A DNA stretch of 53,102 bases from Bacteroidales bacterium. GTDB taxonomy: Bacteria; Bacteroidota; Bacteroidia; Bacteroidales; FEN-979. Each line of letters opens with the position of its first letter. Positions within the stretch are counted from its first letter, which is position 1. The position numbers and the translations under genes are program-made. The stretch lies in contig JADGPR010000014.1 of NCBI GenBank assembly GCA_017882335.1, forward strand, positions 1-53,102, written 5' to 3'. Below the pieces are notes generated by a model, which worked only from the letters and a program-made list of their open reading frames with translations, searched no databases and was not told where the DNA came from. Of this stretch, positions 2,256 through 25,697 are shown piece after piece.

Positions 2256-2265
2256 TTATATCTGG

Positions 2266-3513: not shown

Positions 3514-3552
3514 GGTTACTTCTTATGGATCTTTTGGATCCAGGATGATGGT

Positions 3553-6243: not shown

Positions 6244-6320
6244 AACACGAGGTTTTACAGGTTATTTAGTTTGCTAATCCAGTTGATATCTAGGTAGTAG
6301 TAACTAAAGGAATACAGCCA

Positions 6321-6352
6321 CAAAAATAAATAATTTTTCACTAGTCAGCCAA
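6321..6352 (-). promoter_or_regulatory. Candidate Bacteroidota promoter for the protease gene
   Basis: On the minus strand TATTTTTG (6328-6321) fits the TAnnTTTG -7 consensus, with TTGG (6352-6349) 20 bp upstream in place of the usual TTTG -33 box. It is 78 bp before the start codon at 6243. No ribosome binding site is evident, as is common in this phylum. Confidence 0.45.
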
Positions 6353-6373
6353 CCAACCGGTTATTAATTTCCA

Positions 6374-6949: not shown

Positions 6950-6952
6950 GGT

Positions 6953-8522: not shown

Positions 8523-8549
8523 AAGTGCTTATTCTTTGTAAAAAAAAAA

Positions 8550-8569
8550 CCGGACGAGTTATCGTCCGG
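8550..8569 (-). terminator. Intrinsic terminator (perfect 8-bp stem)
   Basis: CCGGACGA-GTTA-TCGTCCGG forms a perfect 8-bp stem with a 4-base loop. On the minus strand it is followed by nine or more T residues, a textbook terminator for the gene at 8593-9009. On the plus strand the hairpin follows pabC but is trailed only by CTTTCCTT, so termination in that direction would be weaker. Confidence 0.85.
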
Positions 8570-8592
8570 CTTTCCTTGGAAAAAACGGAGGA

Positions 8593-9009
8593 TCATTTTT
8601 CTACGCTACTTAATACCGGATTCAGAAATATAACATACAAGTTGAACAGGTAGGTATCGCAGATAGCGAATTTACCTTTCTGAACATCCGGATTACTGCG
8701 GAACAATTCAGTTGTATTTCCATTGGCATAGATCAACTGAGCCACCCGGGTTCCAATTACAGTTTTGGATTCGTAAAAATTGTAGAAAATCTTTCCGTAA
8801 AGGAGCAATTGGGGAGGAGCGACCGGGATGTTTCTTTCATCGGTCATCACAACAAAAATATTCCTTGTATTGAACGGAATGTCTTTTGGCATGTGAATCT
8901 GTACCTTATAATGTACTTTACCGGTTATGGTCTGGTCGTTTCCGGCAATTACTTGTAAAGAAATCATCAGAACACTGATGGCGATGATGGTTTTTGCAAT
9001 TGTTTTCAT
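8593..9009 (-). CDS. Small secreted protein of unknown function
   Basis: A 138-residue protein starting MKTIAKTIIAISVLMISL, a clear signal peptide ending near VIAGN. The frame stays open upstream to 9237, but that part is basic and Cys-rich, without family character, and overlaps the promoter-like sequence at 9039-9046, so the start at 9009 is chosen. The mature part is beta-rich (GKVHYKVQIHMPKDIPFN, RNIFVVMTDERNIPVAPP, GTRVAQLIYANGNTTELF). I do not recognise the family. It is predicted to be periplasmic or surface-exposed. It is a single-gene unit with a strong terminator immediately after it. Confidence 0.7.
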   Translation of the reverse strand: MKTIAKTIIAISVLMISLQVIAGNDQTITGKVHYKVQIHMPKDIPFNTRNIFVVMTDERNIPVAPPQLLLYGKIFYNFYESKTVIGTRVAQLIYANGNTTELFRSNPDVQKGKFAICDTYLFNLYVIFLNPVLSSVEK

Positions 9010-9038
9010 GGCGTTTGTTTTTAGGGGTTTTGTACGAA

Positions 9039-9046
9039 CAAAATTA
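9039..9046 (-). promoter_or_regulatory. Candidate -7 box for the secreted protein gene
   Basis: On the minus strand TAATTTTG fits TAnnTTTG exactly, 30 bp before the start codon at 9009. TTTC about 20 bp further upstream is a weak -33 element. Its position supports the short form of the downstream gene. Confidence 0.45.
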
Positions 9047-9298
9047 TACCCGAACCCGGCGTCGGAGAAATTGATTCCTGCGGAGGACGAGACTCGTTTT
9101 GCGGAAAATCCGGAAAATACCCCGCAAAAAATGACACACAAACCCATACGTCTTGATTTTTTGCGGAGACATGTATAAAAAAGTAAGTTTCTCCTGAAAA
9201 AATGCAAAACGGAATATTGAAAATAGGATAAATTCACTAAATTTTAATCTGTTTCACACATTTTTTTCAAAAATATTCAGACCGGATTATTTTCTTAC

Positions 9299-9306
9299 TA
9301 CTTTTG
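9299..9306 (+). promoter_or_regulatory. Candidate -7 box for the lipoprotein/outer membrane gene pair
   Basis: TACTTTTG matches TAnnTTTG, 75 bp before the ATG at 9382. No clear -33 TTTG is visible at the usual 19-21 bp distance, so support is partial. Confidence 0.35.
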
Positions 9307-9381
9307 TAACCTGGCAGGAACTGAAAAGTTCTTATCTTAACAAAATGAATCTTATTTGAGTGTATCTTAAATATCCCCGAA

Positions 9382-9726
9382 ATGAAGCAGTTTTTACTCT
9401 TTTCCGGAGTGGTACTTATAATGGCCCTTGCTGCCTGCCACAAAAGTTCACCAACCCCAGATAATTCCTCAGGTTCTTTCAAATTCACCAGCCTCGTGAC
9501 AAAAGACACGGTGATAAAAATTAATGACCTAACCACTATTAATGCTACAGCTAGCGGAGAAGGATTGACTTATACCTGGACAGCTGATTTTGGCACCTTC
9601 ATCGGTTCGGGTAGCACCGTTCAATGGACTGTATGTCATGCGGATAAATTCACGATCAACTGCACGGTTAAGGATAAAAACAATAACTCCGATACCAGGA
9701 ATGTCACCATCAGGTCCCATGAATAA
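9382..9726 (+). CDS. Small lipoprotein with a PKD/Ig-like domain
   Basis: 114 residues. MKQFLLFSGVVLIMALAAC is a lipoprotein signal peptide with lipobox LAAC (acylated Cys19). The rest is a single beta-sandwich: TINATASGEGLTYTWTADFG and GSTVQWTVCHADKFTINCTV, then KDKNNNSDTRNVTI. This is the pattern of PKD-type domains (xYxWxxxxG ... YTVxxTVxDxxG). It is probably anchored on the outer membrane, facing the periplasm or the surface. Its stop codon overlaps the start of the next gene by 8 bp, so the two products are probably made together. Function unknown. Confidence 0.8.
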   Translation: MKQFLLFSGVVLIMALAACHKSSPTPDNSSGSFKFTSLVTKDTVIKINDLTTINATASGEGLTYTWTADFGTFIGSGSTVQWTVCHADKFTINCTVKDKNNNSDTRNVTIRSHE

Positions 9727-10732
9727 ATTCGCCGGAGCCCTGTTTCTTATCTTCTTCTGTCTTTTACTCCCCGATATTGCTGATTCACAGTGCTGTTCTA
9801 CGGGCAGTCCTTCCGGGGCCTCAGAATACATGGGCGTTCTGGGAAAGAATTATTTTCGCCTGGCTACCTTTTACCGTCACAGTTATTCGGATACCTACTA
9901 CGAAAGCGACAGCCATGCCGATAACAACCCCCTGAAATCGGCCAATTACAATTTTGGTGGATTGACACTCGGATATGGAATCACCAGGCGGCTCACTGTT
10001 GAGATCGACTTCGGTTACTTCATGAACAAGACGCAGTTATATCTTAACACCAATATACCCAAACAAACTGGTTTCGGGTTTTCAAACAGTGGAGTCACCC
10101 TGAAGTATGGTCTTTTCGTCAAACCTACTAAACAAATCGAACTGACAGCCGGCGCAGGCTTCCGTTACCCTTTTACCAGAGATCCTCAAATGGTTGATAA
10201 CGTTCAACTGAACCGTGACATACAGCCATCCACCAATGCATTTGGCATTAATGGCATGCTGTTCTTCAGCATCGGGTTCCCGTCTGTAACCATGCGGGTA
10301 TTTTCTATCAACAGGTACGACTACAATTTTTTCGATAAGACCGATCCTTCGTATCCCACTTTGTATGATTACAAATATGGCAATATCCTTTTGAATTCAG
10401 TTTTTGTATCAAAAAAAATCATGAAGTACCTTTTTGCAATTGTACAATTCCGGAATGAATATAAAACCAATGATAATAGAAGACTCAAAGAGACAGGTGA
10501 AGTGAGCAACCAAGTGAATACCGGCTATGATATTTTTTATGTTTCCCCCCAACTCAGTTACTCAATTGTTGGTAAGTGGAACGTATCCGTGGGTTTTGAC
10601 CAGCCGCTTTACAAGAATTACAAAGGTCACCAGCTTACGCCGGCATATTCCTATGCCATAAGCCTTACACGCGATTTCAACCTTGGCCATAAAGCTCCGA
10701 AAGTTGAGCCTGCAAGAGTGGATTCACAATGA
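9719..10732 (+). CDS. Predicted outer membrane beta-barrel protein
   Basis: The start at 9719 gives MNKFAGALFLIFFCLLLPDI, a signal peptide ending after ADSQ. The frame extends back to 9590, but that would overlap the upstream lipoprotein gene by more than 130 bp. The roughly 337-residue product has alternating hydrophobic beta-strands (RLTVEIDFGYF, QIELTAGAGFRYPF, SVTMRVFSINRYDYNFF, WNVSVGFDQPLYKNY) typical of a barrel. A Cys-Cys pair sits just after the cleavage site (SQCCSTG). It is translationally coupled to the lipoprotein at 9382. I recognise no named family; it could be a transporter-like channel or structural porin. Confidence 0.75.
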   Translation: MNKFAGALFLIFFCLLLPDIADSQCCSTGSPSGASEYMGVLGKNYFRLATFYRHSYSDTYYESDSHADNNPLKSANYNFGGLTLGYGITRRLTVEIDFGYFMNKTQLYLNTNIPKQTGFGFSNSGVTLKYGLFVKPTKQIELTAGAGFRYPFTRDPQMVDNVQLNRDIQPSTNAFGINGMLFFSIGFPSVTMRVFSINRYDYNFFDKTDPSYPTLYDYKYGNILLNSVFVSKKIMKYLFAIVQFRNEYKTNDNRRLKETGEVSNQVNTGYDIFYVSPQLSYSIVGKWNVSVGFDQPLYKNYKGHQLTPAYSYAISLTRDFNLGHKAPKVEPARVDSQ

Positions 10733-10758
10733 CATCCTGCAATCCTGCAAGACGGATA

Positions 10759-13428
10759 TCAGATGGACTGCCGATAGGGTAATTCAACGCTTTCAGCTAT
10801 ACAGATGGATTGCAGTTTCCCCAATGACCATGGCAGATTATAATTATAAAGATCTCCGTAGGGTCGTTTCAAAAGCGTGATCAGGTAACGGGTATCTTTA
10901 TCGTGTTCTGATTGTATCCGGGATTCAATTTCCTCCCAGTCGGGGGAACATAATTTTAAAGTGATAAATAATTCGGTTTCCATCGACGACAGCGTGATCG
11001 TGTTCAGGTCGTCCGTTAGCAGTTTGTTTTTTGTACGGTTGAGGTGGCGTTCGCCGAATTCGGAAAGTACCTGCATATATTTCCCGAACAGGATGTGTTC
11101 ATTGAGAAGAAATACGATGCCGGATGAATCAAAAGCCCTCCAGAAGGCAAGGGGGTGAGGTTGGCATAAAAACCTGCCAAGCATAAAAGCCCCGGCAGAA
11201 AACCCACTGAGCATATCTTTTTGGCAAAGCCGGATCATGCTTCTGAAAAACAAAATCTTCCTTTCGGTTGAAAGCAAACTATAGATTTTATGCTGGTCCA
11301 GGTGCGATCCGATCCCGCTTTTCAGAATTTCCGTACAATAATAATCCATGTGGACATCAAACCAGCCGTTCACGAATTCAACTGCTTTCTGAGGTTGTTG
11401 GTCATAATCATTGCGAATCAGTTTGACCAGGTCCGGCAGTGTCATTGCCTCTTCGGTCTTCAGCGTGTCAAGGATCTCCTGGTAAGAACCATAGGCTTTG
11501 GCCATATTGATGAATACCTTTTCTTCCTTTTCTTCCATTTTTAGGGATTTGCCTTCCAGGTATTTCTGAAATCGAGCAGGTTTATAATTGGCTTTACCGA
11601 TATAGATGCAGTGATGCTTACTCGACACCGTGATCCATTCACCCTCCTGGATGATCATCCCGGTATCATTAGTGATGGCATTTTCAGCAAGGCTCATATG
11701 ATGGTTTTTCAGGTTGATGAAAGCAGGTATGCCATATCCCAGGCAGGCCGTCACCACGTGAATGGCCAATGGGTTCATGCTTAGTATGGCATCCAGTTCA
11801 CCCATGAAGATGGTTTCCGAGGGAATAAAATTTTCCTTGCAGAGGCAGACCTTCTCTCCTTTTTTTTTCACTTCCAGGGCTTTTGCCATGGAGAAATAGA
11901 TTTTTGTCGATACCGCGGACCTGGGAAGTACCGAAACACCATAACCGAAAAGTGTCAGGGATTTTAACGAGAGATCATCTATCCGCTCGGAGAAGATCTG
12001 GCGCAGATGGTAAGGTCGGATCAGTTGGATCACTCTCTTTTTTGAGATGATTTTTTTTTGGTAAAGGTCGATGGCTGTCAGAAGCGTTGACCTGCCAGTG
12101 AGTTCAGACATGTTCAGCTGGAGAATGGCAAAAAGCGAAATCCCTTCAAAGGATTCCACAGCAAACTCAATGGTTGCCGGTGATCTGAGTTTCACTTCCA
12201 GTTTTGGCAACATGGGTGTGAAATGATAGATGGCTGGAAATTCCTCCATTATTTCATTACGGTCAAAGTACTCTCTTTGCTCCGCGTGAATGGTCCCGGT
12301 CATGATCTCCTCACCGAAAATTTCCCGGACGCTTTCGATCTGTATCCCAAGCCCGGTGCGGGGATGACGGCTGTACAGGACCCCTGGATAAGAATCCTGG
12401 TTCCGAACCGTCCATACCATTTTTTGCAGTATCAATGCAGGAAAAGTAACATGTCCCCGCTGAAAAGTATAGATCAGGTCCTGGTTCCGCGTGTAAAAGC
12501 TATGCGAAACACCCATAAACCTCTTCACCTGGTAATGTGCATCATGTAAGATCCGTTCGTCGATGTGTTCGATTTTTTTGAAAAGAAAAGCGATCTGTTC
12601 TTCTATATCTTCCACAACCGGAACGCAGTTATCTTTCTTTTTACGAAAGAATTCCTGCTCCGAACCCAGGATTTGGCACAAGGACTGAAGATTATTCAGG
12701 TAGATTTTATTTGCCACGGGGAGCCCATATTGACGCTCAAGCGACTGAAAGCTGAGCTTTGTAACCCCGACATTAAGGTAGGTCGGCATCAGTCCAGGGA
12801 TGTAATGTGGAGTTGCCGACCGCATCGCAAAAACCAGGGCATGATCAGGATCTCCCAGCTTTTCGCCCGTCATCTTTTCCAGGTTGGATATGGCAGCCTG
12901 GAGACAGGCTTCTCTCACCCGTGCATTTAACTGGTATGATTGTGAAGTCAGCACGCAGAAATCCGGCACAGGATAGCCTTCCTGGTAAAGGTCGAGCAGC
13001 ACTTTCCCTTTCTGGCTCAAGAGAAGTTCGTCGTAGGGATACGTTGTGGCTGCCGGGACGACCGAATCGTTTTCGATAAAATGCAGCGACCCGAATTTTG
13101 ATTGCAGCGACTTCAGATATTGGTTCGAGAGGGATTCTCTTTTTTTCCGGGCAATGGCATTATTGTTTAAAGAGGCAATGAGGATATCCAGGTACTGTAA
13201 TGCCTGTTCCCGGTCGGACTGGCATAGGATTGAGACATCGATATTTCTTAACGGAAACGATCGAAATGTCTGCTCTCCTAGGTTTTTAAATTCCAATTCA
13301 GGCATCAGAAAACCGGGAGAACCTCCCGCCACCCCTTCATCAAACGGATGCGAAAGTACCTGCTGAACTGAATAATAATTCGGGTAATAAGCCCTCAGGC
13401 GGAATTCTGTTTTAGGTTTTCGGGACAT
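10759..13428 (-). CDS. PPDK-like protein: ATP-grasp and phospho-His domains without the PEP barrel
   Basis: 889 residues. An N-terminal region of about 130 residues has no assignment. Residues 138-161 (LSQKGKVLLDLYQEGYPVPD) match the 'KGxxLAEM...G.PVP' start of PEP synthase/PPDK ATP-binding domains. AMRSATPHYIPGLMPTYLNV (201-220) matches the 'VRSGAxxSMPGMMDTILN' ATP loop with its Arg (Arg203), and VLYSRHPRTG is at 350-359. The swivelling phospho-His domain follows; His557 in LAIHVVTACLGYGIPAF aligns with the catalytic His of TSHAAVVARGMGKP, but the preceding Thr-Ser is lost. After about residue 640 there is no PEP/pyruvate TIM barrel, only a helical region of about 250 residues. It may transfer phosphate from ATP to an unknown acceptor or be regulatory. 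It is a single gene, convergent with the outer membrane gene. Frame and domains are clear, function is not. Confidence 0.85.
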   Translation of the reverse strand: MSRKPKTEFRLRAYYPNYYSVQQVLSHPFDEGVAGGSPGFLMPELEFKNLGEQTFRSFPLRNIDVSILCQSDREQALQYLDILIASLNNNAIARKKRESLSNQYLKSLQSKFGSLHFIENDSVVPAATTYPYDELLLSQKGKVLLDLYQEGYPVPDFCVLTSQSYQLNARVREACLQAAISNLEKMTGEKLGDPDHALVFAMRSATPHYIPGLMPTYLNVGVTKLSFQSLERQYGLPVANKIYLNNLQSLCQILGSEQEFFRKKKDNCVPVVEDIEEQIAFLFKKIEHIDERILHDAHYQVKRFMGVSHSFYTRNQDLIYTFQRGHVTFPALILQKMVWTVRNQDSYPGVLYSRHPRTGLGIQIESVREIFGEEIMTGTIHAEQREYFDRNEIMEEFPAIYHFTPMLPKLEVKLRSPATIEFAVESFEGISLFAILQLNMSELTGRSTLLTAIDLYQKKIISKKRVIQLIRPYHLRQIFSERIDDLSLKSLTLFGYGVSVLPRSAVSTKIYFSMAKALEVKKKGEKVCLCKENFIPSETIFMGELDAILSMNPLAIHVVTACLGYGIPAFINLKNHHMSLAENAITNDTGMIIQEGEWITVSSKHHCIYIGKANYKPARFQKYLEGKSLKMEEKEEKVFINMAKAYGSYQEILDTLKTEEAMTLPDLVKLIRNDYDQQPQKAVEFVNGWFDVHMDYYCTEILKSGIGSHLDQHKIYSLLSTERKILFFRSMIRLCQKDMLSGFSAGAFMLGRFLCQPHPLAFWRAFDSSGIVFLLNEHILFGKYMQVLSEFGERHLNRTKNKLLTDDLNTITLSSMETELFITLKLCSPDWEEIESRIQSEHDKDTRYLITLLKRPYGDLYNYNLPWSLGKLQSICIAESVELPYRQSI

Positions 13429-15778: not shown

Positions 15779-16480
15779 CTATCCTATTCTACTGATCTTT
15801 TTCAAGGCAACGGAATCAAGGAGCTCCATTTCATTGTCTGTGATCCTGATGATTCCGTCATTCTGAAATTCCCTGAGGACTTTCACAGCACTGTCCTTTG
15901 ACATAGCAGAAAGATCAGCCAGATCCTGCTTTGAGATCAGCATAGGGAATTTATTACTTTGAAAAATGTCGTTAAAAAGATAAAGAAGCGTATCAGACAA
16001 ACGGCCGGGCATTTGTTTCTGGGTAAGATTAATTAACCGGTTGTAAGCCGAAAGCGTGTTCCTGCTGAAATCCTTTATGAATTCCTCGGCAAACAGGCTG
16101 TTCTGTTTGATGATCTTTTTAAATACATGAATATCAATAAAGCAAACCGATGATTCCATCAGCGCGGTCACAGTATAGTGGTGCATCAGGTCTAAATAGA
16201 TTCCCGGACCACCGATAAAGTTTGTTGGTTTGACAAGCCTTAGGATAGCATTCCGCTGCTCTATCCCTTCCAGGTATAATTTTGCAAGACCGGAGTTCAC
16301 AGAAATTACATGTGTCATTACCGTTCCTTGCTTGCGAATGGTCTCCCCGGGCTTAAAGACCACATTGATCCGGTTTTTCTGGACTTGTTCCAACTCCTCA
16401 TCGGAAAGTAACCGGAATAAGGATGACTTGCACTCACAAGAAATGCAATTCATTTGTGTTTTCTCTAAATAATCTGGCAT
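15779..16480 (-). CDS. Crp/Fnr-family transcription regulator with N-terminal cysteine cluster
   Basis: 233 residues from the ATG at 16480; the longer frame to 16636 adds an unrelated stretch overlapping promoter elements. Residues 12-17 are CISCEC, and Cys113 lies in ALMESSVCFID, the position of Cys122 in E. coli FNR (SMVCEI). These four cysteines could hold an oxygen- or redox-sensitive Fe-S cluster, though the spacing C-x2-C-x-C differs from FNR. A cyclic-nucleotide-type beta-roll (about 38-115), a dimerisation helix and a winged helix follow. Its recognition helix (MSKDSAVKVL, 194-203) has Asp, Val and Lys where FNR has Glu, Ser and Arg, so its DNA site may differ from TTGAT-N4-ATCAA. It is divergent from the respiratory operon at 16791, the obvious candidate target. 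Confidence 0.9.
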   Translation of the reverse strand: MPDYLEKTQMNCISCECKSSLFRLLSDEELEQVQKNRINVVFKPGETIRKQGTVMTHVISVNSGLAKLYLEGIEQRNAILRLVKPTNFIGGPGIYLDLMHHYTVTALMESSVCFIDIHVFKKIIKQNSLFAEEFIKDFSRNTLSAYNRLINLTQKQMPGRLSDTLLYLFNDIFQSNKFPMLISKQDLADLSAMSKDSAVKVLREFQNDGIIRITDNEMELLDSVALKKISRIG

Positions 16481-16553: not shown

Positions 16554-16567
16554 ATGATATATATCAA
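16554..16567. promoter_or_regulatory. FNR-box-like palindrome
   Basis: ATGATATATATCAA differs from the FNR consensus TTGATnnnnATCAA by one base, and its core TGATATATATCA is a perfect 12-bp palindrome. Position and dyad suggest a site for the adjacent Fnr-like protein, but AT-rich palindromes arise easily and the protein's recognition helix is not FNR-like. Confidence 0.4.
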
Positions 16568-16790: not shown

Positions 16791-17738
16791 ATGAAGAATA
16801 AATTACCTTCCCGCAGAAAGTTTTTGAAATTGGGTGTTGCCGCCGGGGCCAGTGCCCTGTTTGTTGGAGGAAGTAACATGTTATCCGCATTAACGAATAA
16901 TGACCCCAAAGAGACCGGAGAGAAAGTCAAAGTCCTTACACAGGATGGAAAGCTGGTTGATGTTGACAAGGGGCACCTCTGCTGCCCGCCGGTGTCAAAC
17001 AAGGAAGCCCGGCAAGGGATACCGGATAAAAAGATGGTCATGGTCATTGACTTGGCAAAATGCAGGAATGCAAGGAAATGTCTTCAGGGCTGCCAGAGCA
17101 TGCACATGCTGCCTCCGCACATGGAATGGATCAAATTTTACCTGATGCGCGACACCGAAGATCAGGCACCCTACTGGTTCCCTAAACCCTGTCTGCATTG
17201 CAACAATCCTCCCTGCGTAAAAGTGTGCCCGGTAGGGGCTACTTTCAAACGCACTGACGGGATTGTCCTGATCGACAACGATCGTTGCATCGGTTGTAAA
17301 TTCTGCATGGCTGCATGCCCTTATTCATCGAGGGTTTTCAATTGGGAAGAACCGAAGCTCCCCAAAGTCGCTCACAAGCAACCCTATTCTCCTGAGACGA
17401 GCACACCCCCAAAAATCGGAACAGTGAGCAAATGTGATTTTTGTCCCGATATGGTCAGAAAAGGGGAATTACCTGCCTGTGTCAAATCCTGCCCCAACGG
17501 TGTTTTTTATTATGGTGATAAAAATGAGGATGCAGTCACCAACGGAACCGACACGGTACTATTCAGCGAATTGCTCGAAAGCAGGGCTGCTTACCGGTTC
17601 ATGGAAGAGCTGGGTACCGAACCCAGTGTTTATTACCTCCCAGCCGTCGACCGTGCCTTTGATTATAAAACCGGATTTGAAGGATTAAGTGAGGATGAGA
17701 TCGCCTTATATAAAAAGGAAGCTAAGATTACAGAATAA
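16791..17738 (+). CDS. Tat-exported ferredoxin-type subunit, respiratory module 1
   Basis: 315 residues of the DmsB/NrfC/PsrB type. A twin-arginine signal (SRRKFLKLG, residues 7-15) directs export of the folded protein. Ligand groups: Cys91, Cys97 and Cys101 (CRNARKCLQGC; Ala94 sits where the second ligand of a CxxCxxCxxxC motif belongs); Cys134, 137, 142, 146; Cys166, 169, 172, 176; and Cys215, 218, 230, 234. So one cluster lacks a cysteine and may be [3Fe-4S]. A Cys64-Cys65 pair before the clusters (GHLCCPP) is shared with the paralogue at 22500. It should carry electrons at the periplasmic face, next to the NrfD-type protein encoded 12 bp downstream. No catalytic molybdopterin subunit is encoded here. 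Confidence 0.92.
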   Translation: MKNKLPSRRKFLKLGVAAGASALFVGGSNMLSALTNNDPKETGEKVKVLTQDGKLVDVDKGHLCCPPVSNKEARQGIPDKKMVMVIDLAKCRNARKCLQGCQSMHMLPPHMEWIKFYLMRDTEDQAPYWFPKPCLHCNNPPCVKVCPVGATFKRTDGIVLIDNDRCIGCKFCMAACPYSSRVFNWEEPKLPKVAHKQPYSPETSTPPKIGTVSKCDFCPDMVRKGELPACVKSCPNGVFYYGDKNEDAVTNGTDTVLFSELLESRAAYRFMEELGTEPSVYYLPAVDRAFDYKTGFEGLSEDEIALYKKEAKITE

Positions 17739-17750
17739 ATTAAGAAAACA

Positions 17751-19973
17751 ATGAACGAAGACGAAAAAACTCAGCAAAACCTGATTGCTTTTAAACCCCA
17801 ATTGGAAAAGATTAGTAAAAAAGGGATCGCATTGATCGTTTTTCTCTCACTGGTCATTCTGTTTGGCCTTTATTGCCTTTACATACAGGACACCAAAGGT
17901 CATATTGTGACCGGTATGCGCGACAATGTAGTCTGGGGGTTATACATCGTTAATTTTATCTTTTTTATAGGGATCAGTTATGCAGGCGCCCTCATCTCCG
18001 GTATCCTGCATTTGTTAAGAGTTCCCTGGCGAACACCCATCATCCGGATGGCCGAGATGATCACCGTGATATCTACCCTGATCGGACCTGGATATATTTT
18101 ATTGTGTATCGGGCGGCTCGACCGGTTACCTAATTTATTACTTTTCGGCAGGATCCAGTCTCCGATCATCTGGGATGTCATTGCCATCACAACCTATTTA
18201 TCCGGGAGTATCATCTTTCTTTATCTTGCCACGATCCGCGACCTTGCCATACTCCGCGATAACCCGGTAAAGGTTGCAAAGTGGCGCAATCCCATTTATC
18301 GTTTTATGTCGGTCAGGTATAAAGATACAACAAAGCAAAAGGAATTGCTGAATGTAGTAACAGACCTGTTATCGATCGTCATCATCCCCCTGGCAATCCT
18401 TGTGCACTCCGTCCTTGCCTGGATATTTGGAATGACATTGCGGCCAGGCTGGCACAGTACAATTTTTGCTCCTTACTTTGTGATTGCTGCTGTCTATTCA
18501 GGAACCGGGGTATTGATCATGGTAATGTGGGTATTCCGCAAGGTTTATCACCTGGAATCCCATATCACCAAAATCCATTTCAATTACCTGGCAATCATCA
18601 TGATCGTTTTAGGTGCGCTATACGGGTACTTTACCTTCAGTGAATACCTGACCAGCTGGTACGGTTCGATTAAATGGGATATGGAGGTCCTTTACAGGTT
18701 ATTCAATCCGGATCAGTATTTTCTTCAGTTTGTATTTGCAGTTTTTATCGGAGTAATGGTCCCGATTATCATTGTTACCGTTCCAAGGTTCAGGAACATC
18801 AATTCCATCGCATTTGCTGCTGTCATTGCGGTATTTGCCCTCTGGGTGAAACGCTACCTGATCATCATTCCTACCCTGGAATCCCCTTTGTTACCTATTC
18901 ACGATCTTCGGCCTGAATTCGTTCACTATTCGGCGACATGGGTTGAATGGTCCCTTACCTTTGCCGGTATTGCCCTTTTTGTGCTGCTGTTCTACCTCTT
19001 TTCAAAATTCGTCCCGATAATTCCGATAGTCAGAACCGGTGAAGAAAAGGACTATTCAAGGTTGAGGAAAGTCGTTTTTGAAAACCAGATGAAAAAAGTC
19101 ATCAAAAAGAATAAAAAAAGCGATATGATTTCAACAGGAATCATCCTATTGCTGATGCTGGTATCTGTGCCCTGTGCCATGGCGCAGGATGAAACCAGAA
19201 TTAAAACGGTGCTCAAGCTGGAGTATTTCCATGTTGATTCGGCTCAAAACCTCACCGCTACCTTGCAGGCTAAGGTAGAAGGAAGATACCTGCCCCTTCA
19301 GGGAATGGAAATTGGTTTTAAATTTCTCCAGGGCAGTACAGAAAAATCTATGGGAACCGCCATGACCAATGAGCAAGGCAATGTGACCTTCTCATTTCCT
19401 GATGATATCTTAGCCACCAAAGGAGATAAAGGGGTTTATTCGTTTACAGCATCATTTTCCGGCAAAGACAATTACGACAAAGCTTCGGCAAGCGCTACAA
19501 TGAAACCGTTGCGGATGGAGATTTCATTTTCTCAGAAGGGCCAGGACAAAATGATTGACCTGAAAGCTTTTGAACCTGGCAAAAAAGTTGACGAATGGGT
19601 GCCGGTCGACAAACTCGACATCCAGTTTTATGTTCCACGGACTTTCAGTTTGCTAAAAGTCGGAAAAGGAACAATAACTAATGGTACGACCAGCCTGGAG
19701 TTTCCCACTTCAATCCCCGGGAATCAACTGGGGTATCTCACCATCGTGGCGAAAGTTGAAGAAAATGAGATCTACGGGAATGTTGAAGTAAGCGGTACCA
19801 TCAACTGGGGAAAACCATTACCTTTGACAAAGATCATCAAACGCGGATTGGGCGATACCGATGCCCCGCTATGGATGGTGTACACCCTCATCGTGTTACT
19901 TTCCGTTGTGTGGTTTCATTACATGTATGTTATTTTCACTGTTTTCAGGATACGTCATTTAGGTAAATCATAA
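17751..19973 (+). CDS. NrfD/PsrC-type quinone subunit fused to an Ig-like periplasmic domain
   Basis: 740 residues. Residues 1-445 have ten membrane helices of the NrfD/PsrC/ActC superfamily, with the hallmark RPGWHSTIFAPYFV loop, TGMRDNVVWGLYIVNFIFF, YGYFTFSEYL and KRYLIIIPTLESPLLP; this family exchanges electrons or protons with the quinone pool. Residues 459-481 (MISTGIILLLMLVSVPCAMA then Q) look exactly like a signal peptide placed inside the protein. About 220 residues of two Ig-like beta-sandwiches follow, and a last helix after RGLGDTDAPLWMVYTL. The second half is a paralogue of the separate protein at 24810-25697, so this is a gene fusion, or a polyprotein cut by signal peptidase. An internal ATG at 19125 could also start a separate product. 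Confidence 0.9.
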   Translation: MNEDEKTQQNLIAFKPQLEKISKKGIALIVFLSLVILFGLYCLYIQDTKGHIVTGMRDNVVWGLYIVNFIFFIGISYAGALISGILHLLRVPWRTPIIRMAEMITVISTLIGPGYILLCIGRLDRLPNLLLFGRIQSPIIWDVIAITTYLSGSIIFLYLATIRDLAILRDNPVKVAKWRNPIYRFMSVRYKDTTKQKELLNVVTDLLSIVIIPLAILVHSVLAWIFGMTLRPGWHSTIFAPYFVIAAVYSGTGVLIMVMWVFRKVYHLESHITKIHFNYLAIIMIVLGALYGYFTFSEYLTSWYGSIKWDMEVLYRLFNPDQYFLQFVFAVFIGVMVPIIIVTVPRFRNINSIAFAAVIAVFALWVKRYLIIIPTLESPLLPIHDLRPEFVHYSATWVEWSLTFAGIALFVLLFYLFSKFVPIIPIVRTGEEKDYSRLRKVVFENQMKKVIKKNKKSDMISTGIILLLMLVSVPCAMAQDETRIKTVLKLEYFHVDSAQNLTATLQAKVEGRYLPLQGMEIGFKFLQGSTEKSMGTAMTNEQGNVTFSFPDDILATKGDKGVYSFTASFSGKDNYDKASASATMKPLRMEISFSQKGQDKMIDLKAFEPGKKVDEWVPVDKLDIQFYVPRTFSLLKVGKGTITNGTTSLEFPTSIPGNQLGYLTIVAKVEENEIYGNVEVSGTINWGKPLPLTKIIKRGLGDTDAPLWMVYTLIVLLSVVWFHYMYVIFTVFRIRHLGKS

Positions 19974-20003
19974 TTATTCACAACAACTAAAAATGGAGGT
20001 TTT

Positions 20004-20423
20004 ATGAAATTATTTCAAATCAGGTTAATGACCATTTCAATGGGGATGCTCCTCGTGTTTTCTTTCAGTACCATTATTCAGGCACAAACTGCTGGTGTAT
20101 GGAATATCCCGGCAAAATATAAACCCATGAAAAATCCGGTATCGAAAAGTAAAGAAAGCGTGGCCAACGGGAAAGACCTTTATGCAAAACACTGCAAGTC
20201 ATGTCATGGTACTGCCGGATTGGGCGATGGCCCCAAGGCAGCAAGTCTGGATGTAACCTGCAGTGACTTTTCATCCAAAAAATTCCAAGCTCTGGCAGAT
20301 GGGGAAATTTTCTTTCAGATGTCCGAAGGAAAAGGGAAGATGCCTTCGTTTAAAAAACTGATACCGGAGGATAATGACCGTTGGGGTCTGATACATTACC
20401 TCAGGACAATGGCAGCAAAATAA
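20004..20423 (+). CDS. Monohaem cytochrome c, respiratory module 1
   Basis: 139 residues. A signal peptide ends near IIQAQ (about residue 28). One CXXCH haem site (CKSCH, 64-68) sits in a cytochrome c fold (ANGKDLYAKHCKSCHG, GLGDGPKAASLDV) with Met113 in GKGKMPSF as the likely sixth ligand, and RWGLIHYLRTMA as the C-terminal helix. It resembles the small cytochrome subunits of alternative complex III-like systems, though those are often lipoproteins and this one lacks a lipobox. It lies 30 bp after the NrfD-Ig gene, with a GGAGG Shine-Dalgarno sequence only 4 bases from its ATG. It probably accepts or donates electrons in the periplasm for the module. Confidence 0.9.
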   Translation: MKLFQIRLMTISMGMLLVFSFSTIIQAQTAGVWNIPAKYKPMKNPVSKSKESVANGKDLYAKHCKSCHGTAGLGDGPKAASLDVTCSDFSSKKFQALADGEIFFQMSEGKGKMPSFKKLIPEDNDRWGLIHYLRTMAAK

Positions 20424-20434
20424 GAAGATTCATA

Positions 20435-22108
20435 ATGTTGCAGGAAAATCAAGATCAACCGGCCACGATCAGTGAATTGCTTGAAAAAGTGAATTCGCTT
20501 GAAATGAGAATTGGCAGGATTGAAGAACAATTGGATGCTGCAGTTCAGGGAATGGGAATAATTCGTTCGGAGCGGAACCGACCCGAACAGGGTGACCACA
20601 CAGAATTTGAAGAGCGTGTGGTGGATAAAAATCTGATCGAATCGAACATTTTCGAATATGGAATGACTTGGTTCGGAAGCCTTGTATTATTATGCGGGAT
20701 CTGTTTTCTGTCGAACTTTGCTAAAAATTACATGAATGGCACGTTAGCCAGTCTTGTTGGTTATTTGGCGGTGGCCGGTGTGTTTTTCCTTGCATGGTAT
20801 ATCAGGAATTCCTATTCCCATCTCTCTTTCATGCTGAATCTCTGCGCACATCTTCTTGTCTATTACATCACATTGCGTTTATATTTTTTCACAGGAAACC
20901 CTGTGATCCCGGTAAAAGGAGTAGTTGTAGCGCTACTCCTTGTTGCCATTGCTGTACAATGCTATTTTGCCATCAAACGTAATTCGGAATTGATGGCAGT
21001 CATTGCAATACTGCTGACCTTTGCCACAGCACTTTTCACAGATAGCACCGTAGTTGCTCTGCCCCTGATGATCCTGACTTCCGCATTTTCGGTTTTCTTT
21101 CTCATCCGATATGGCTGGTGGCGGTTGATGTTGACATCAATGATTTTTGTATACTTATCACAAATAATCTGGCTGCTGAACAACCCGATCATGGGTCATG
21201 TTTTCGGAACTCCTTCCGTGGATTCCTACAACCTAGTATCGTTATTTGCCTATGGGTTGATCTATTCACTTATTCCCATGATAAAGCAAAAAGGAAAGTT
21301 TCCTGATAGTGTTTATTCCACCACCATCCTGATGAATGGCATAAGCTTTACAGTGGTTCTTTCCCTGGTGATCATTTCCTGCTACTTGAACAGCTATGTC
21401 TGGATTTTTGCTGTAATCTCGATGCTCTGCCTATTCTATTCCATTGTTCTTAAATACAGGATCACCAGGATATTCGATCCGGCCTTTTATGCGATTTACA
21501 GCTTTATGGCATTGAGTGTCGCAGTTTATGACTATTCAAAACTACCGGATGCCTACTGGTTGCTGGCATTGCAAAGTCTCCTCGTACTCTCATGGGCATT
21601 GTGGTTCCGTTCAAAAATCATCGTGGTTATGAATACGATCCTATTCTCCGGTATCCTGGGCGTCTACCTGGCTTTTTACCCTTCAGTCGACAAAGTGAAT
21701 ATTGCATTTGTGATTACAGCCTTTATCAGTGCAAGAATAATAAACTGGAAGAAAGAACGGCTTACGCTGCAAACAGAGATGATTCGGAATACCTACCTGA
21801 TCGCCCTCTTTTTTATTATGTTGTTTGCATTGTACCATCTAGTACCGCCACAATATGTCGCCCTTTCGTGGACAGCCGCAGCCGTTTTTTATTTTATCAT
21901 GAGCCTGACCCTGAAGCTCATCAAATACCGGTGGATGGCCATTGCCACGGTATTGGTCACGGGGTTCTACCTCTTCTTTGTTGACTTATCACATCTTGAA
22001 ACGGGTTACAGGGTGCTGGCATTTCTTTTCCTGGCAGTGATTTCCCTCGGGGCATCCATGTATTTCACAAAAAAGGTACGAAAAAAATTACATCCGGGAA
22101 ACGAGTGA
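20435..22108 (+). CDS. DUF2339-like polytopic membrane protein
   Basis: 557 residues from the ATG at 20435; the frame is open to 20381, but that start would overlap the cytochrome gene. Residues 1-60 are a cytoplasmic coiled coil (ISELLEKVNSLEMRIGRIEE). About fourteen hydrophobic helices follow, and HLETGYRVLAFLFLAVISLG near the end matches the DUF2339 closing pattern. Such proteins are of unknown function. It starts 11 bp after the cytochrome gene and is probably the last gene of the module 1 operon, so a role in assembly or stability of the complex is possible, though unproven. Confidence 0.75.
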   Translation: MLQENQDQPATISELLEKVNSLEMRIGRIEEQLDAAVQGMGIIRSERNRPEQGDHTEFEERVVDKNLIESNIFEYGMTWFGSLVLLCGICFLSNFAKNYMNGTLASLVGYLAVAGVFFLAWYIRNSYSHLSFMLNLCAHLLVYYITLRLYFFTGNPVIPVKGVVVALLLVAIAVQCYFAIKRNSELMAVIAILLTFATALFTDSTVVALPLMILTSAFSVFFLIRYGWWRLMLTSMIFVYLSQIIWLLNNPIMGHVFGTPSVDSYNLVSLFAYGLIYSLIPMIKQKGKFPDSVYSTTILMNGISFTVVLSLVIISCYLNSYVWIFAVISMLCLFYSIVLKYRITRIFDPAFYAIYSFMALSVAVYDYSKLPDAYWLLALQSLLVLSWALWFRSKIIVVMNTILFSGILGVYLAFYPSVDKVNIAFVITAFISARIINWKKERLTLQTEMIRNTYLIALFFIMLFALYHLVPPQYVALSWTAAAVFYFIMSLTLKLIKYRWMAIATVLVTGFYLFFVDLSHLETGYRVLAFLFLAVISLGASMYFTKKVRKKLHPGNE

Positions 22109-22328
22109 AATTGAACACCAATCCCACTAAATCATTCTTATTACGCCACCGATCAGCAACTTTAAACCTTGCTTTCGGTTTATATTCGAACCGGTTATGG
22201 ATAGGGTTAATGGGTGGACTGGTTATCATAGTCTTGCAATGTCATAGGTTCGCTTCCGGCATTCGTTATTCGGTCTACTTATGCATAAGCTAAAGTGTAC
22301 AAATTTATATTGTTTTGAACTCAATTAT

Positions 22329-22360
22329 TTTGAAATTTTAAATCATTTTTATTACTTTTG
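22329..22360 (+). promoter_or_regulatory. Promoter of respiratory module 2
   Basis: TTTG (22329-22332), a 20-bp spacer and TACTTTTG (22353-22360) match the Bacteroidota -33/-7 consensus in both elements and spacing. It is the best promoter in the window. Transcription should begin near 22367, leaving a leader of about 130 nt. Confidence 0.65.
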
Positions 22361-22371
22361 TGAATTATTAC

Positions 22372-22453
22372 ACAAGTTTTATTAATCATTTTCAAATAGA
22401 TGTAGCGGGTTCATTAATTACCGGTTTACATCTATTTACTAATTAAAACTTGT
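22372..22453 (+). promoter_or_regulatory. Long imperfect stem-loop in the module 2 leader
   Basis: Outer arms ACAAGTTTTA (22372-22381) and TAAAACTTGT (22444-22453) are exact complements. Inner arms AAATAGATGTA (22394-22404) and TACATCTATTT (22427-22437) are also exact, enclosing a 22-nt loop. The structure starts about 5 nt after the predicted transcription start and ends 46 nt before the ATG at 22500. It could protect the mRNA, act as an operator or be an RNA switch; no T tract follows, so it is not a standard terminator. Confidence 0.55.
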
Positions 22454-22499
22454 CATTCTAAAATTGTTTTTATTTCTCCTAATAAATCTACACAATCAT

Positions 22500-23459
22500 A
22501 TGCCAAAGAAAAATAAAAAAGATCCATCACGCCGTGATTTCCTTATCAAAGGACTCAATATTGCTGCTGGGACTCTTCTGGGAGGTGGAATCCTGGCTTC
22601 CTGTACGAAAGAACCGGAACCCCAGGGAACGGGTGAAAAAATAAAAGTTCTCACCGCTGACGGACAACTTATGGAGGTTGACAGGGGACATGCCCTATGC
22701 TGTAATGCGCCTACTTCAAAAGAAGTGAGAAAAGGAATCTCGGGACGCCATTTTGTGATGGTTATTGACCTTTCACGATGCAGGAATGCAAGGGCCTGTG
22801 TCAATGCATGCAACAAAATGCATTTTTTACAACCCGGGCATGAATGGATAAAGGTCTTTCTAATGCAGGATTCAGATGACACATCACCTTACTGGATGCC
22901 CAAGCCCTGTTTTCATTGCGATGCCCCTCCCTGTGTGAATGTTTGCCCGGTGGGTGCATCTTTTAAACGTGAAGACGGAGTTGTTCTTATCGATAACATG
23001 CGCTGCATCGGGTGTAAATTTTGTATGGCAGCCTGTCCATATTCATCCCGCGTTTTTAACTGGGAATCTCCTCCTGTTAAAGTGAGTGCAAAATTTTCTC
23101 CTGAAACAGGTGTTCCCCAAAGAAAAGGAACTGTCGGGAAATGTGATTTCTGCCCCGATTCATTTGCTAACGGGATATTACCGGATTGTGTTACGGCTTG
23201 TCCGAATGGGGTTTATTTTTTCGGTGATAAAAATGAAGATGTAGTCACCAATGGACAAGAGTCTGTCCGTTTCAGCGAGCTGGTAAAAGATAAAGCTGCT
23301 TACCGGTATATGGAAGAACTCGGTACACGGCCAAATGTCTATTATCTGCCTCCTGTCGACAGAAGGTTCCCTGTCCAGGAAGGATTTGAGGATATACCCG
23401 AAAATGTTAAAAAAGGCTACGAGGTTAAAAGAGCTCATCTGAAAAAGTTTAAATTCTAA
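22500..23459 (+). CDS. Tat-exported ferredoxin-type subunit, respiratory module 2
   Basis: 319 residues from ATG 22500 (MPKKNKKDPSRRDFLIKG); the frame extends to 22464 but the twin-arginine signal fixes the later start. It is a close paralogue of the protein at 16791, with the same four cluster motifs and the same lost ligand: Cys94, Ala97, Cys100, Cys104 (CRNARACVNAC). The Cys-Cys pair is at 67-68 (GHALCCN). Unlike module 1, the signal ends in a lipobox (ILASC, Cys35), so this copy may be a Tat-exported lipoprotein anchored in a membrane. It is followed 11 bp later by the NrfD-type gene. The catalytic partner is not encoded in the window. Confidence 0.92.
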   Translation: MPKKNKKDPSRRDFLIKGLNIAAGTLLGGGILASCTKEPEPQGTGEKIKVLTADGQLMEVDRGHALCCNAPTSKEVRKGISGRHFVMVIDLSRCRNARACVNACNKMHFLQPGHEWIKVFLMQDSDDTSPYWMPKPCFHCDAPPCVNVCPVGASFKREDGVVLIDNMRCIGCKFCMAACPYSSRVFNWESPPVKVSAKFSPETGVPQRKGTVGKCDFCPDSFANGILPDCVTACPNGVYFFGDKNEDVVTNGQESVRFSELVKDKAAYRYMEELGTRPNVYYLPPVDRRFPVQEGFEDIPENVKKGYEVKRAHLKKFKF

Positions 23460-23470
23460 ATTATCTGATT

Positions 23471-24805
23471 ATGAATTCACCAGAACTTGCGCAGAAAAAA
23501 CTTGTAGAAGTCATATCCCGATATGATAAACCTACCGTATTGGGTAAAATTATGTTCATCTTTTTTTTCCTGGTGCTGCTATTTGCAATTTATGCATTTA
23601 TTACCCAGACGATCAAAGGTCAGATTGTAACAGGCATGAGGGATTATGTTGTTTGGGGTATCTATGATGTAAATTTTATCTTTTTCATCGGGATCAGTTA
23701 TGCCGGGGCCATGATATCAGGAATACTTCATCTGCTGCATGTGGAATGGAGAAAGCCCATTATCAGGATCGCAGAAATGATCACGGTCATTTCTGTCATT
23801 ATCGGCCCGGTCTTCATTTTGGTTGAGATGGGACGGCTGGACCGCATTTTTAATATTTTCACTCATGGAAGAATCCAGTCTCCTATCCTTTGGGATGTCG
23901 TGGCAATTCTGACCTATCTTTCCTGCAGTATCCTCTTCCTTTATCTTGCGTTAATAAGGGATTATGCGCTGCTCAGGGACAATACCGTATTGAAGATTTC
24001 AAAATTTCGCCGGTATTTTTACAAGAAACTTGCCGCGACTTATATTGACCTGCCTCAACAGAAAAAATTCCTGAACCGGGCGCTTACCATAATGTCGGCG
24101 CTAATTATTCCCCTGGCGGTTCTGGTCCACTCTGTATTAGCCTGGATTTTCGGCATGACGATACGCCCCGGCTGGCATAGCACCATTTTTGCTCCTTATT
24201 TCGTTGTTGCCGCAGTCTTTTCTGGTACTGCAGTATTAATTATTGCCATGTGGTTTTTCAGGAAATTTTATCATCTTGAAGAATATATCCTGGAAAAACA
24301 TTTTAAGTATATCGGAACGATTCTTCTTGTACTCGCCGCCTTATACGGGTATTTCACATTCAGTGAGTATCTGACGGTCTGGTACGGGTCGGAGACCTGG
24401 GAACTGGAAGTCGTTTACAAATTGTTCGATTTTAGCGCCTATGGAGCATGGTTCTACCTTGCTGCTTTTGTTGGCGTATTGGTCCCCATGATCTTTACAG
24501 GTTTACCCTTCCTGCGAAACATCAATACAATTACGATAGGTTCTGTTGTGGCCGTAATCTGTATGTGGATCAAACGTTACCTGATCATCGTCCCTACCCT
24601 TGAAACGCCCTTGCTGCCCTTACAGGACATCCGGCCTGAGTATGCTCATTATACTGCTTCCTGGGTTGAATGGACATTAACCGCGGGAGGTATAGCGACA
24701 TTTTGCATGTTCTTCATGATCTTTATCAAGTTCATGCCAATCATCCCGGTTGCTGATATTGCAGAGGTATCTGAGAAAAAAGAATTTATTTCTGAAAAAC
24801 TTTAA
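23471..24805 (+). CDS. NrfD/PsrC-type quinone subunit, respiratory module 2
   Basis: 444 residues with ten membrane helices, closely similar to residues 1-445 of the fusion protein at 17751. Shared motifs are TGMRDYVVWGIYDVNFIFF, RPGWHSTIFAPYFV, LYGYFTFSEYL, KRYLIIVPTLETPLLP and YTASWVEWTLT. Ten helices is the number in alternative complex III ActC rather than the eight of PsrC. The role is likely quinol oxidation or quinone reduction coupled to the ferredoxin subunit. Here the protein stops soon after the tenth helix, and the Ig-like protein begins 4 bp later as its own gene, the unfused state of module 1. Confidence 0.92.
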   Translation: MNSPELAQKKLVEVISRYDKPTVLGKIMFIFFFLVLLFAIYAFITQTIKGQIVTGMRDYVVWGIYDVNFIFFIGISYAGAMISGILHLLHVEWRKPIIRIAEMITVISVIIGPVFILVEMGRLDRIFNIFTHGRIQSPILWDVVAILTYLSCSILFLYLALIRDYALLRDNTVLKISKFRRYFYKKLAATYIDLPQQKKFLNRALTIMSALIIPLAVLVHSVLAWIFGMTIRPGWHSTIFAPYFVVAAVFSGTAVLIIAMWFFRKFYHLEEYILEKHFKYIGTILLVLAALYGYFTFSEYLTVWYGSETWELEVVYKLFDFSAYGAWFYLAAFVGVLVPMIFTGLPFLRNINTITIGSVVAVICMWIKRYLIIVPTLETPLLPLQDIRPEYAHYTASWVEWTLTAGGIATFCMFFMIFIKFMPIIPVADIAEVSEKKEFISEKL

Positions 24806-24809
24806 TTTC

Positions 24810-25697
24810 ATGAGACAAAAGAAGATAGTTCCGGTCCTAATCATTTTAACACTAATTACAGGTTTCATCCAGACAGCTTTTGCAGGAGATTTAGTTACCC
24901 CAAGGCTTGATGGGACCTATGAAAAAATGCCTGATGGTACAAAAAAGATTTCCGTGTCCCTCTCGGCCAGTATAGATGACAAACGCGTATATATTGAAAA
25001 TGCACCGCTGCAGGTCAGTGCAGAAAATGAAACTGGGAAAACGCTCCTTGGTTCTGCCGTTACCAACCTGAAAGGAAAGGCATTCTTTGAAATCAGTCCC
25101 GGAAAATCCATTCCTGAGGACAAGGAGGGTTATTATACGTTTGTTATCCAGTATGAAGGAAATCAAAAGTTTAACATTACCTCCAAAACGATACGGGTCA
25201 AGGAGTTATTCATGGAGATCTCCTTTCCCAAAAGTGATTCTATAATTAATGTACAGGTAAGTGTATCTGCAAAAAATGACAAAGGGGTGAAGGAAACAGT
25301 TCAGGATATCCCGGTTGAATTTTATGTAAAACGGTTATTCGGCTTGTTCAAATTCGGAAGTGAGAAAACGGATGCATCAGGTTTATGCACTGCTGAATTT
25401 CCCAAAAGTTTACCGGGAGATACCACAGGAAAAGCGATAATTGTCGCTAAAGTTCTTGACAATGAATTCTATGGAACTGTTGGTGCATCAGTGGATTTTA
25501 AAAAGGCAACCCCATTGATTCTTGAGCCGAAACAAAAGCGGGGACTTGGCGATACCGATGCACCTCTTTGGATGGTCTATACACTGCTTGTCCTGTTGAC
25601 AGGAGTGTGGTTCCATGTCATATATGTCATCGGACTCGTCATCAGGATTAATATAAAGGGAAAGAAAGCGCTTAAAAAAACAATCATGACAGAATAA
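24810..25697 (+). CDS. Signal-peptide, Ig-like, membrane-anchored subunit of respiratory module 2
   Basis: 295 residues from ATG 24810 (MRQKKIVPVLIILTLITGF), signal peptide ending at TAFAG. Two beta-sandwich segments follow (about 30-130 and 130-250), each with a 'TDASGLCTAEFP'-type turn as in Ig-like or transthyretin-like domains. A C-terminal helix after RGLGDTDAPLWMVYTLLVLL keeps it in the membrane. It is homologous to the C-terminal half of the protein at 17751; the near-identical RGLGDTDAPLWMVYTL segment suggests a conserved contact with the NrfD subunit. No metal or haem motif is visible, so a structural or partner-docking role is more likely than electron transfer. I know of no named family. 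Confidence 0.85.
   Translation: MRQKKIVPVLIILTLITGFIQTAFAGDLVTPRLDGTYEKMPDGTKKISVSLSASIDDKRVYIENAPLQVSAENETGKTLLGSAVTNLKGKAFFEISPGKSIPEDKEGYYTFVIQYEGNQKFNITSKTIRVKELFMEISFPKSDSIINVQVSVSAKNDKGVKETVQDIPVEFYVKRLFGLFKFGSEKTDASGLCTAEFPKSLPGDTTGKAIIVAKVLDNEFYGTVGASVDFKKATPLILEPKQKRGLGDTDAPLWMVYTLLVLLTGVWFHVIYVIGLVIRINIKGKKALKKTIMTE

Follow-up and report, generated by a model that had tools for sequence, protein, structure and literature searches.

What two adjacent respiratory gene modules accomplish with a ferredoxin, an NrfD-type membrane subunit and an Ig-like protein, and with no catalytic subunit beside them, is the question raised by the window, by which we mean the whole 53,102-nucleotide contig analysed here, from a Bacteroidales genome of 3.13 Mb (123 contigs, 96.68% complete). 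A sequence-only reading had proposed an undescribed electron conduit between quinone and periplasm, ending in cytochrome c in module 1, and the checks that it named support this core proposal. The extent and gene content that it gave for both modules are right, as judged by open reading frames (ORFs) and domain scans, and the features are as follows.

15779 to 16480, minus strand: regulator of the CRP/FNR family, divergent from module 1 (PF00027 and PF13545)
16554 to 16567, no strand assigned: FNR-box-like palindrome ATGATATATATCAA, with one mismatch to TTGAYNNNNRTCAA
16791 to 17738, plus strand: module 1 Tat-exported ferredoxin (FeS; PF13247, 77.4 bits; DsrO-like, 176.6 bits, cut-off 200)
17751 to 19973, plus strand: module 1 NrfD-Ig fusion (PF03916, 112.8 bits; ActC fold in the AlphaFold model)
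20004 to 20423, plus strand: module 1 periplasmic monohaem cytochrome c with a CxxCH motif (PF13442, 44.7 bits)
20435 to 22108, plus strand: module 1 DUF2339-like multi-helix membrane protein (PF10101, 31.4 bits, cut-off 33.6)
22500 to 23459, plus strand: module 2 Tat-exported ferredoxin (PF13247, 69.2 bits)
23471 to 24805, plus strand: module 2 NrfD, ActC-like and a separate protein (PF03916, 115.0 bits; grouped in a tree with L049-L051)
24810 to 25697, plus strand: module 2 Ig-like protein with a signal peptide, two Ig-like domains and a C-terminal helix (Big_1, 20.6 bits, sub-threshold)

The cut-off for PF03916 (NrfD) is 25.8 bits. The regulator ORF as listed extends to 16636, and homologues of about 233 amino acids make the ATG at 16480 the likelier start; for the DUF2339-like gene the ATG was taken at 20435, a longer ORF being listed from 20381. 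Both window ferredoxins (315 and 319 amino acids) carry SRRxFL Tat motifs. With identities of 59% for FeS, 59% for NrfD and 34% for Ig, modules 1 and 2 are paralogues. The two extra genes ascribed to module 1, for cytochrome c and a DUF2339-like protein, were both found, the latter with a match just under the cut-off. The cytochrome aligns with those of three other contigs of this genome (C85, C22 and C58), and a conserved Met is likely to be its second haem ligand.

Ferredoxin, NrfD and Ig-like parts are present in both modules, as had been described, but module 1 has no separate Ig gene: its NrfD and Ig parts form one uninterrupted ORF of 740 residues. A frameshift artefact was considered as the cause of this fusion and rejected, because the same fusion occurs in 14 relative loci, most of which keep a signal-peptide-like helix at the fusion point. 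Within the fusion, NrfD occupies about 17751-19040, the linker and former signal helix 19041-19154, the two Ig domains about 19200-19412 and about 19434-19802, and the C-terminal helix 19869-19967. The module 2 Ig protein aligns with the Ig part of this fusion. Pfam scores for Ig (25.4 and 20.6 bits) lie under the gathering score, and the Ig label therefore rests on fold matches and on the AlphaFold model, which has the two beta domains and the C-terminal helix that the sequence-only reading described, as well as its ten NrfD membrane helices. The Ig part resembles common beta-sandwich domains, including Nir2 (Z 11.1 over 97 residues) and macroglobulin domains; such matches, obtained with the 740-residue fusion as the only query rather than with Ig domains folded alone, indicate fold and not function.

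The FeS-NrfD-Ig arrangement is a conserved Bacteroidota cassette, and the modules are not orphans. An alignment search for Ig in a phylum sample of 395 genomes found the gene in 11, own genome included, and in nine besides our own and G039 it follows NrfD; the weak matches in G039, with no NrfD in the 8-kb stretch read, were left out of the cassette counts. An alignment search for NrfD, which followed up the suggestion to look for Ig beside NrfD across Bacteroidota, was evaluated at the best 80 of 585 confirmed loci, a set that consequently leans to the nearest kin of the window. These loci hold 96 NrfD genes, among which 94 have FeS directly upstream, 87 have Ig adjacent or fused, and 70 have a module-type cytochrome c within six ORFs. 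The nine NrfDs without Ig are those at the ends of L063, L072 and L124 (last ORF or cut) and of L125, the ActC of an alternative complex III (ACIII) operon in L063, the second NrfDs of L115 and L116, and those of L107 and L127. In about 12 of the best 80 loci the cassettes stand in tandem. Of the 14 fused loci, 11 have a labelled cytochrome c and 12 a labelled DUF2339-like gene, the two loci cut by contig ends (L059 and L061) both being without the latter label; the flanking-gene labels do not cover every NrfD family, and absence from them is uninformative.

Neighbours differ among the more distant cassettes. The nine phylum-sample genomes carry theirs mostly beside DUF5777-like genes and small lipoprotein-like proteins. 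Loci L036-L044, from other Bacteroidota, have cassettes beside DUF5777-like barrels and EB_dh-domain proteins (three were scanned, and all match), and several of them also encode a Tat-type protein that is small (about 88 residues) and resembles the ferredoxin N terminus. At L115 (6848-9025) and L116 (12675-14877), FeS and a very divergent NrfD accompany a 4-haem protein and face an Ig cassette in convergent orientation. L095, titled Alphaproteobacteria, is a typical Bacteroidales cassette and probably a mislabelled metagenome-assembled genome.

The claim that no catalytic subunit is encoded in the span holds, since ORFs and domain scans revealed no molybdopterin or multihaem gene there. A search of the whole genome gave three PF00384 matches, none on the window contig. 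One, on a short contig that encodes NarG-like and NarH-like proteins, is presumably NarG; the other two we take to lie in a complex I gene run and beside a hydrogenase/formate-dehydrogenase-like gene. A Mo subunit displaced elsewhere on the window contig was also rejected, as none was found among the 38 ORFs outside the modules that were scanned or listed. No catalytic subunit is labelled beside module 1 orthologues at the 14 fused loci (by labels, not by a full family scan). Across 29 genomes, within the limits that contig ends set to such counts, PF00384 matches lie within 20 kb of 0/16 NrfDs of an oxidase-linked type described below, 2/50 other cassette NrfDs and 3/3 NrfDs of NarGHI clusters. 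Both exceptions are in one genome (G404), where the match is weak and lies in a 1027-residue frame next to ActC in an ACIII operon, so that it is probably ActB.

By sequence and by fold, the best solved matches of the window NrfD are ActC subunits, and it is ActC-like. Its profile matched the ActC chains 6f0k_C, 6lod_C, 6btm_C and 8k9e_C with E values of 1.2e-81 to 1.7e-75 and ActF with 2.2e-12 to 2.5e-6, and no other solved structure at 0.001. The AlphaFold model of the fusion (pLDDT 80.6, pTM 0.64) aligned with the four ActC chains at Z 36.1-36.8 over 420-427 residues and with ActF at Z 26.1; the next fold was PsrC (Z 17.5 over 240 residues). A tree placed true ActC in its own supported group (100/99), the module 1 NrfD with the fusions and the module 2 NrfD with L049-L051; its deeper nodes do not settle how the ActC, oxidase-linked, C22 and remaining cassette groups branch, and the root may be disturbed by ActF and by the long-branch second NrfD of L116.

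Four residues of the ActC quinone site (Ser164, Asp169, His139 and Asp253) were taken from the available parts of PMC5928083 and PMC8076601. Equivalents of Ser164 and Asp169 are present in both modules, while module 1 has Cys and module 2 has Glu at the His139 position, and both have Ile at the Asp253 position; the quinone site of the modules thus differs from that of ActC. At the His139 position, Asp occurs in 15/15 readable oxidase-linked NrfDs and His in 6/6 ActC. Cys at this position, which is said to matter for quinol protonation, is found in module 1, C85, 71/83 other cassette NrfDs and 11/14 fusions.

The genome has six NrfD genes (PF03916), two of them in the window, and four further FeS/NrfD loci on contigs C58, C85, C22 and C51. 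The sequence-only reading had missed these four loci, with the caa3/cbb3-linked branch and the multihaem cassette of C85 among them, as well as the NrfD-Ig fusion and the kinship with ActC. On C58 the order is FeS, NrfD and a cytochrome c-Ig protein, followed by DoxX-like, SCO-like and cytochrome oxidase genes (CoxII: CoxB 164.5 bits, cut-off 147.7; CtaD 663, just under 670.75). The fusion protein, also found in relatives, joins a monohaem cytochrome c to a single Ig-like domain and carries a helix at its C terminus, and its Ig part was recovered at E 1.2e-32 with a profile that excluded this very protein. At L246, next to a caa3 operon, a single protein of 762 residues is a further fusion, of NrfD with cytochrome c and Ig. 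The three fusion types tie NrfD, Ig and cytochrome c together, and FeS is tied to them by gene order.

The remaining loci are more varied. On C85, the FeS, NrfD and Ig genes lie among those for a DUF5777 barrel, a b561 cytochrome and cytochromes with 5, 7 and 6 haems. The run, at 2176-13055 of locus L008, includes an FNR-type regulator, the 5-haem lipoprotein-like cytochrome, the barrel, a monohaem cytochrome, the 7-haem and b561 cytochromes, FeS-NrfD-Ig and the 6-haem NapC-like cytochrome, and is a candidate extracellular electron transfer cluster. C22 (L009) encodes NrfD, Ig, cytochrome c and a dihaem cytochrome, and the contig stops short of the ferredoxin, which the near-identical locus L176 of genome G396 does have. 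In this type the dihaem cytochrome lies between NrfD and Ig, with a porin-like protein downstream, and the L176 ferredoxin keeps all 16 Cys, the only cassette type to do so among those examined. The FeS/NrfD pair of C51 (L010, 9324-13169) is unrelated and goes unmatched by the cassette NrfD profile; its neighbours are a two-component system and a substrate-binding-like protein. L047 and L048, on C85 and C112, are homologues of haem-copper subunit I, about 750 residues long and presumably quinol-NO-reductase-like; an NCBIfam scan of one of them named no family.

The genome has no match to cytochrome b (PF00033) or to ActD (PF11821), no ActF was assigned among its six NrfD matches, and neither ActA nor ActF was seen in the module span. 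A search of the genome for two acceptor candidates, NosZ proper and NirS, was negative, a weak NosZ match on C58 being the CuA part of CoxII.

The arrangement on C58 recurs widely. The C58-type NrfD is present in 16 of 29 genomes tested (E below 1e-140), and in 15 of 15 further genomes the cytochrome-Ig protein is followed by an oxidase (14 caa3 and one cbb3, L173). The oxidase-linked type occurs in 80/393 genomes and 57/206 genera of the order. Forty regions were hand-picked from 86 listed places as an order sample, and seven without the complete FeS and cytochrome-Ig set were left out. The 33 complete cassettes comprise 25 beside an oxidase (18 caa3, 7 cbb3), one beside NarGHI (L261) and seven without an oxidase or Nar neighbour, one of which (L262) adjoins an apparent ACIII operon, judged by gene sizes. 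ActD was detected in 7/29 genomes, i.e., in 0/16 with the oxidase-linked NrfD versus 7/13 without it (Fisher p 0.0011, which overstates the case because the 29 genomes are kin and their completeness is not known). Cytochrome b matches occur in 7/16 oxidase-linked genomes, one of them weak, and cytochrome b is thus no general substitute. Oxidase-branch NrfDs were also seen in NarGHJI-NarK clusters (L172 and L175, of G405 and G401, and contig C49 of G399), about 7 kb from narG; no Ig gene was present in the two stretches read.

From the gene content, conservation, natural fusions, operon links and kinship with ActC, and from the lack of a Mo subunit, we consider it probable (about 0.63) that the modules belong to an undescribed family of ACIII-like quinol/cytochrome c oxidoreductases of Bacteroidota that lack a Mo domain and act as a pared-down ACIII. 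An ActC-type ten-helix NrfD would oxidise quinol, presumably menaquinol, at the periplasmic face and pass the electrons into the Tat-exported ferredoxin. The Ig-like subunit, with its membrane helix, would hold the periplasmic side and dock the monohaem cytochrome c, which would carry electrons to a periplasmic acceptor. Module 1 has all four parts, with NrfD and Ig joined; module 2 lacks a cytochrome and may use the one encoded in module 1, or the two modules may pair in the manner of ActC and ActF. The function is assigned to the family because of the caa3/cbb3-linked branch, in which the acceptor would be cytochrome c oxidase, making this branch a substitute for complex III. That link belongs to paralogues whose NrfDs are 35-36% identical to those of the window, and for modules 1 and 2 themselves we infer the direction, partner and acceptor.

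We lean slightly towards a broader view, that the cassette is a third complex III architecture besides bc1 and ACIII. It would consist of three or four parts (FeS, ActC-like NrfD, Ig with helix, and cytochrome c), would be distributed across Bacteroidales, would feed caa3 or cbb3 oxidases in organisms without ACIII, and would have been copied within genomes (here at five loci) for other periplasmic acceptors, including those of modules 1 and 2. For Bacteroidales equipped with a cytochrome c oxidase but lacking both bc1 and ACIII, no path by which quinol could reduce cytochrome c has been described; if the proposal is true, the family fills this gap in 57 of the 206 genera sampled. The parts are old, and their assembly, the Ig subunit and the place in oxidase operons appear to be new.

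The ferredoxins bear on how such a route would run. They had been described as Tat-exported four-cluster proteins; export and the four motifs stand, but one motif has three Cys only, there being 15 cluster Cys instead of 16. Motifs II-IV of the module 1 protein are complete, the second Cys of motif I is Ala94, and module 2 carries the same Ala. This position is non-Cys in 152/154 sequences and Ala in 143 (the tally runs window 2, C85 1, C58 1, then 88/90, 14/14, 34/36 and 4/9, and C22 0/1); Cys is present in one order-sample protein and in the C22 type. In oxidase-linked ferredoxins the second Cys of motif IV is, in addition, replaced by Ser (own 1/1, 14/14, 34/36). Motifs I and IV of such ferredoxins are usually assigned the clusters furthest from the membrane. 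We infer that, with no Mo enzyme left to serve, the outer half of the FeS wire has been altered. The cysteine missing from ActB is in motif III (Thr in 6f0k_B), and that missing from the cassette FeS is in motif I; according to the available part of PMC5928083, the ACIII cluster without one Cys is the quinol-side one. No ActA haem branch was seen beside the cassette, and electrons would therefore have to leave through the ferredoxin, which makes the cassette a natural test of an open question, the role of the FeS wire in ACIII. The AlphaFold model of FeS (pLDDT 55.9) is too poor to inform cluster geometry.

Three other explanations were weighed. Flow in the reverse direction, from periplasmic cytochrome c to quinone as in Qrc or nine-haem (Nhc) complexes, is unlikely: quinol oxidation is the only role that makes sense for the oxidase-linked branch, module 1 has a small cytochrome of monohaem type that aligns with the cytochrome of the caa3-linked fusion, and the NCBIfam scores of the two modules are far under the cut-offs (127.2 and 121.9 versus 400 for QrcC; 35.1 and 39.7 versus 570 for QrcD). 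It has a precedent nonetheless in Qrc, in which an FeS and NrfD pair serves cytochrome c3:menaquinone reduction (in the available part of PMC13059093). The Cys that replaces His139 in module 1 and most other cassette NrfDs is likewise unlike quinol-oxidising ActC, and C85-type multihaem cytochromes with a DUF5777 barrel could bring electrons inward. The same C85 locus invites the thought that modules 1 and 2 are the inner-membrane half of an extracellular electron transfer route to outer-membrane cytochromes such as those of C85, where a related FeS-NrfD-Ig set is joined to multihaem and b561-type cytochromes and a barrel, and where two FNR-box matches (a number reached in 5/200 shuffles) hint at control shared with module 1. 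The neighbours of most of the nine phylum-sample cassettes, DUF5777-like, lipoprotein-like and (where scanned) EB_dh genes, point the same way. We regard this as quite unlikely, because module 1 and its 14 fused relatives are without a barrel and a multihaem protein is labelled beside only one of them (L062); DUF5777 is not known to form a conductive outer-membrane complex, and no open-access paper naming DUF5777 was found.

That the modules are instead a remnant of a Psr- or Ttr-like Mo enzyme, minus its catalytic subunit and with little or no present function, is highly improbable. FeS and NrfD do resemble the electron-transfer pair of Psr and Ttr, PsrB is the best single match of FeS in the PDB, and motif I is short of one Cys. 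However, the cassette is conserved across many genera, the 15 Cys are kept in 90/90 cassette FeS proteins of the 80 loci, NrfD is ActC-like rather than PsrC-like, and fusions recur.

The preferred reading, a family of quinol/cytochrome c oxidoreductases, sets the cassette closest to ACIII (ActABCDEF), with which it shares the ActC-type ten-helix NrfD, a Tat-exported four-motif FeS, a monohaem cytochrome c and, in the caa3-linked branch, adjacency to a cytochrome c oxidase; ACIII feeds aa3/caa3 oxidases (available parts of PMC8552683 and PMC5928083). Unlike ACIII, the cassette is without the Mo-like ActB1 domain and ActD, shows neither pentahaem ActA nor ActF in the span, and has a helix-anchored Ig-like subunit instead. 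Among NCBIfam models, DsrO and DsrP fit the window proteins best, and the DsrJOP part of DsrMKJOP likewise combines FeS (DsrO), NrfD (DsrP) and a small c-type cytochrome (DsrJ) without a Mo subunit. However, scores fall short (176.6 and 171.4 versus 200 for DsrO; 80.5 and 92.4 versus 350 for DsrP), the span has no dsrMKJ genes, and the modules have an Ig subunit and a monohaem His/Met-type rather than trihaem cytochrome. The DsrP1 quinone-site residues Asp106, Ser124 and Asp129 (available part of PMC8076601) parallel the Asp, Ser and Asp of oxidase-linked NrfDs. QrcABCD similarly places an FeS and NrfD pair between menaquinone and a periplasmic cytochrome, but the modules are without hexahaem QrcA and Mo-like QrcB. 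PsrABC and NrfABCD share with the modules a PsrB-type ferredoxin and, in PsrC, the fold that follows ActC and ActF; the modules differ in the lack of PsrA, NrfA and NrfB and in their ActC-like NrfD. Unlike the Psr, Dms and Ttr Mo enzymes, they have no molybdopterin subunit beside FeS and NrfD. Known NrfD systems are reviewed in PMC8076601, available in part, and neither a description of the FeS-NrfD-Ig cassette nor a characterised cluster with these subunits was found in the open-access literature.

Regulation may be linked to oxygen. The divergent CRP/FNR-type regulator has an N-terminal Cys motif, and a divergent CRP-labelled gene adjoins the fused cassette in 10/14 fused loci. The window has no exact FNR-box match, ATGATATATATCAA having one mismatch; among 10 fused-type loci whose upstream regions were aligned with it, the corresponding site fits the pattern exactly in eight and with one mismatch in two. 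The FNR-like box and the divergent regulator together suggest control of module 1 by oxygen or NO, and the regulator makes it probable that module 1 is used at low oxygen. C85 has two identical FNR-box matches around its regulator, and these suggest that it may share control with module 1.
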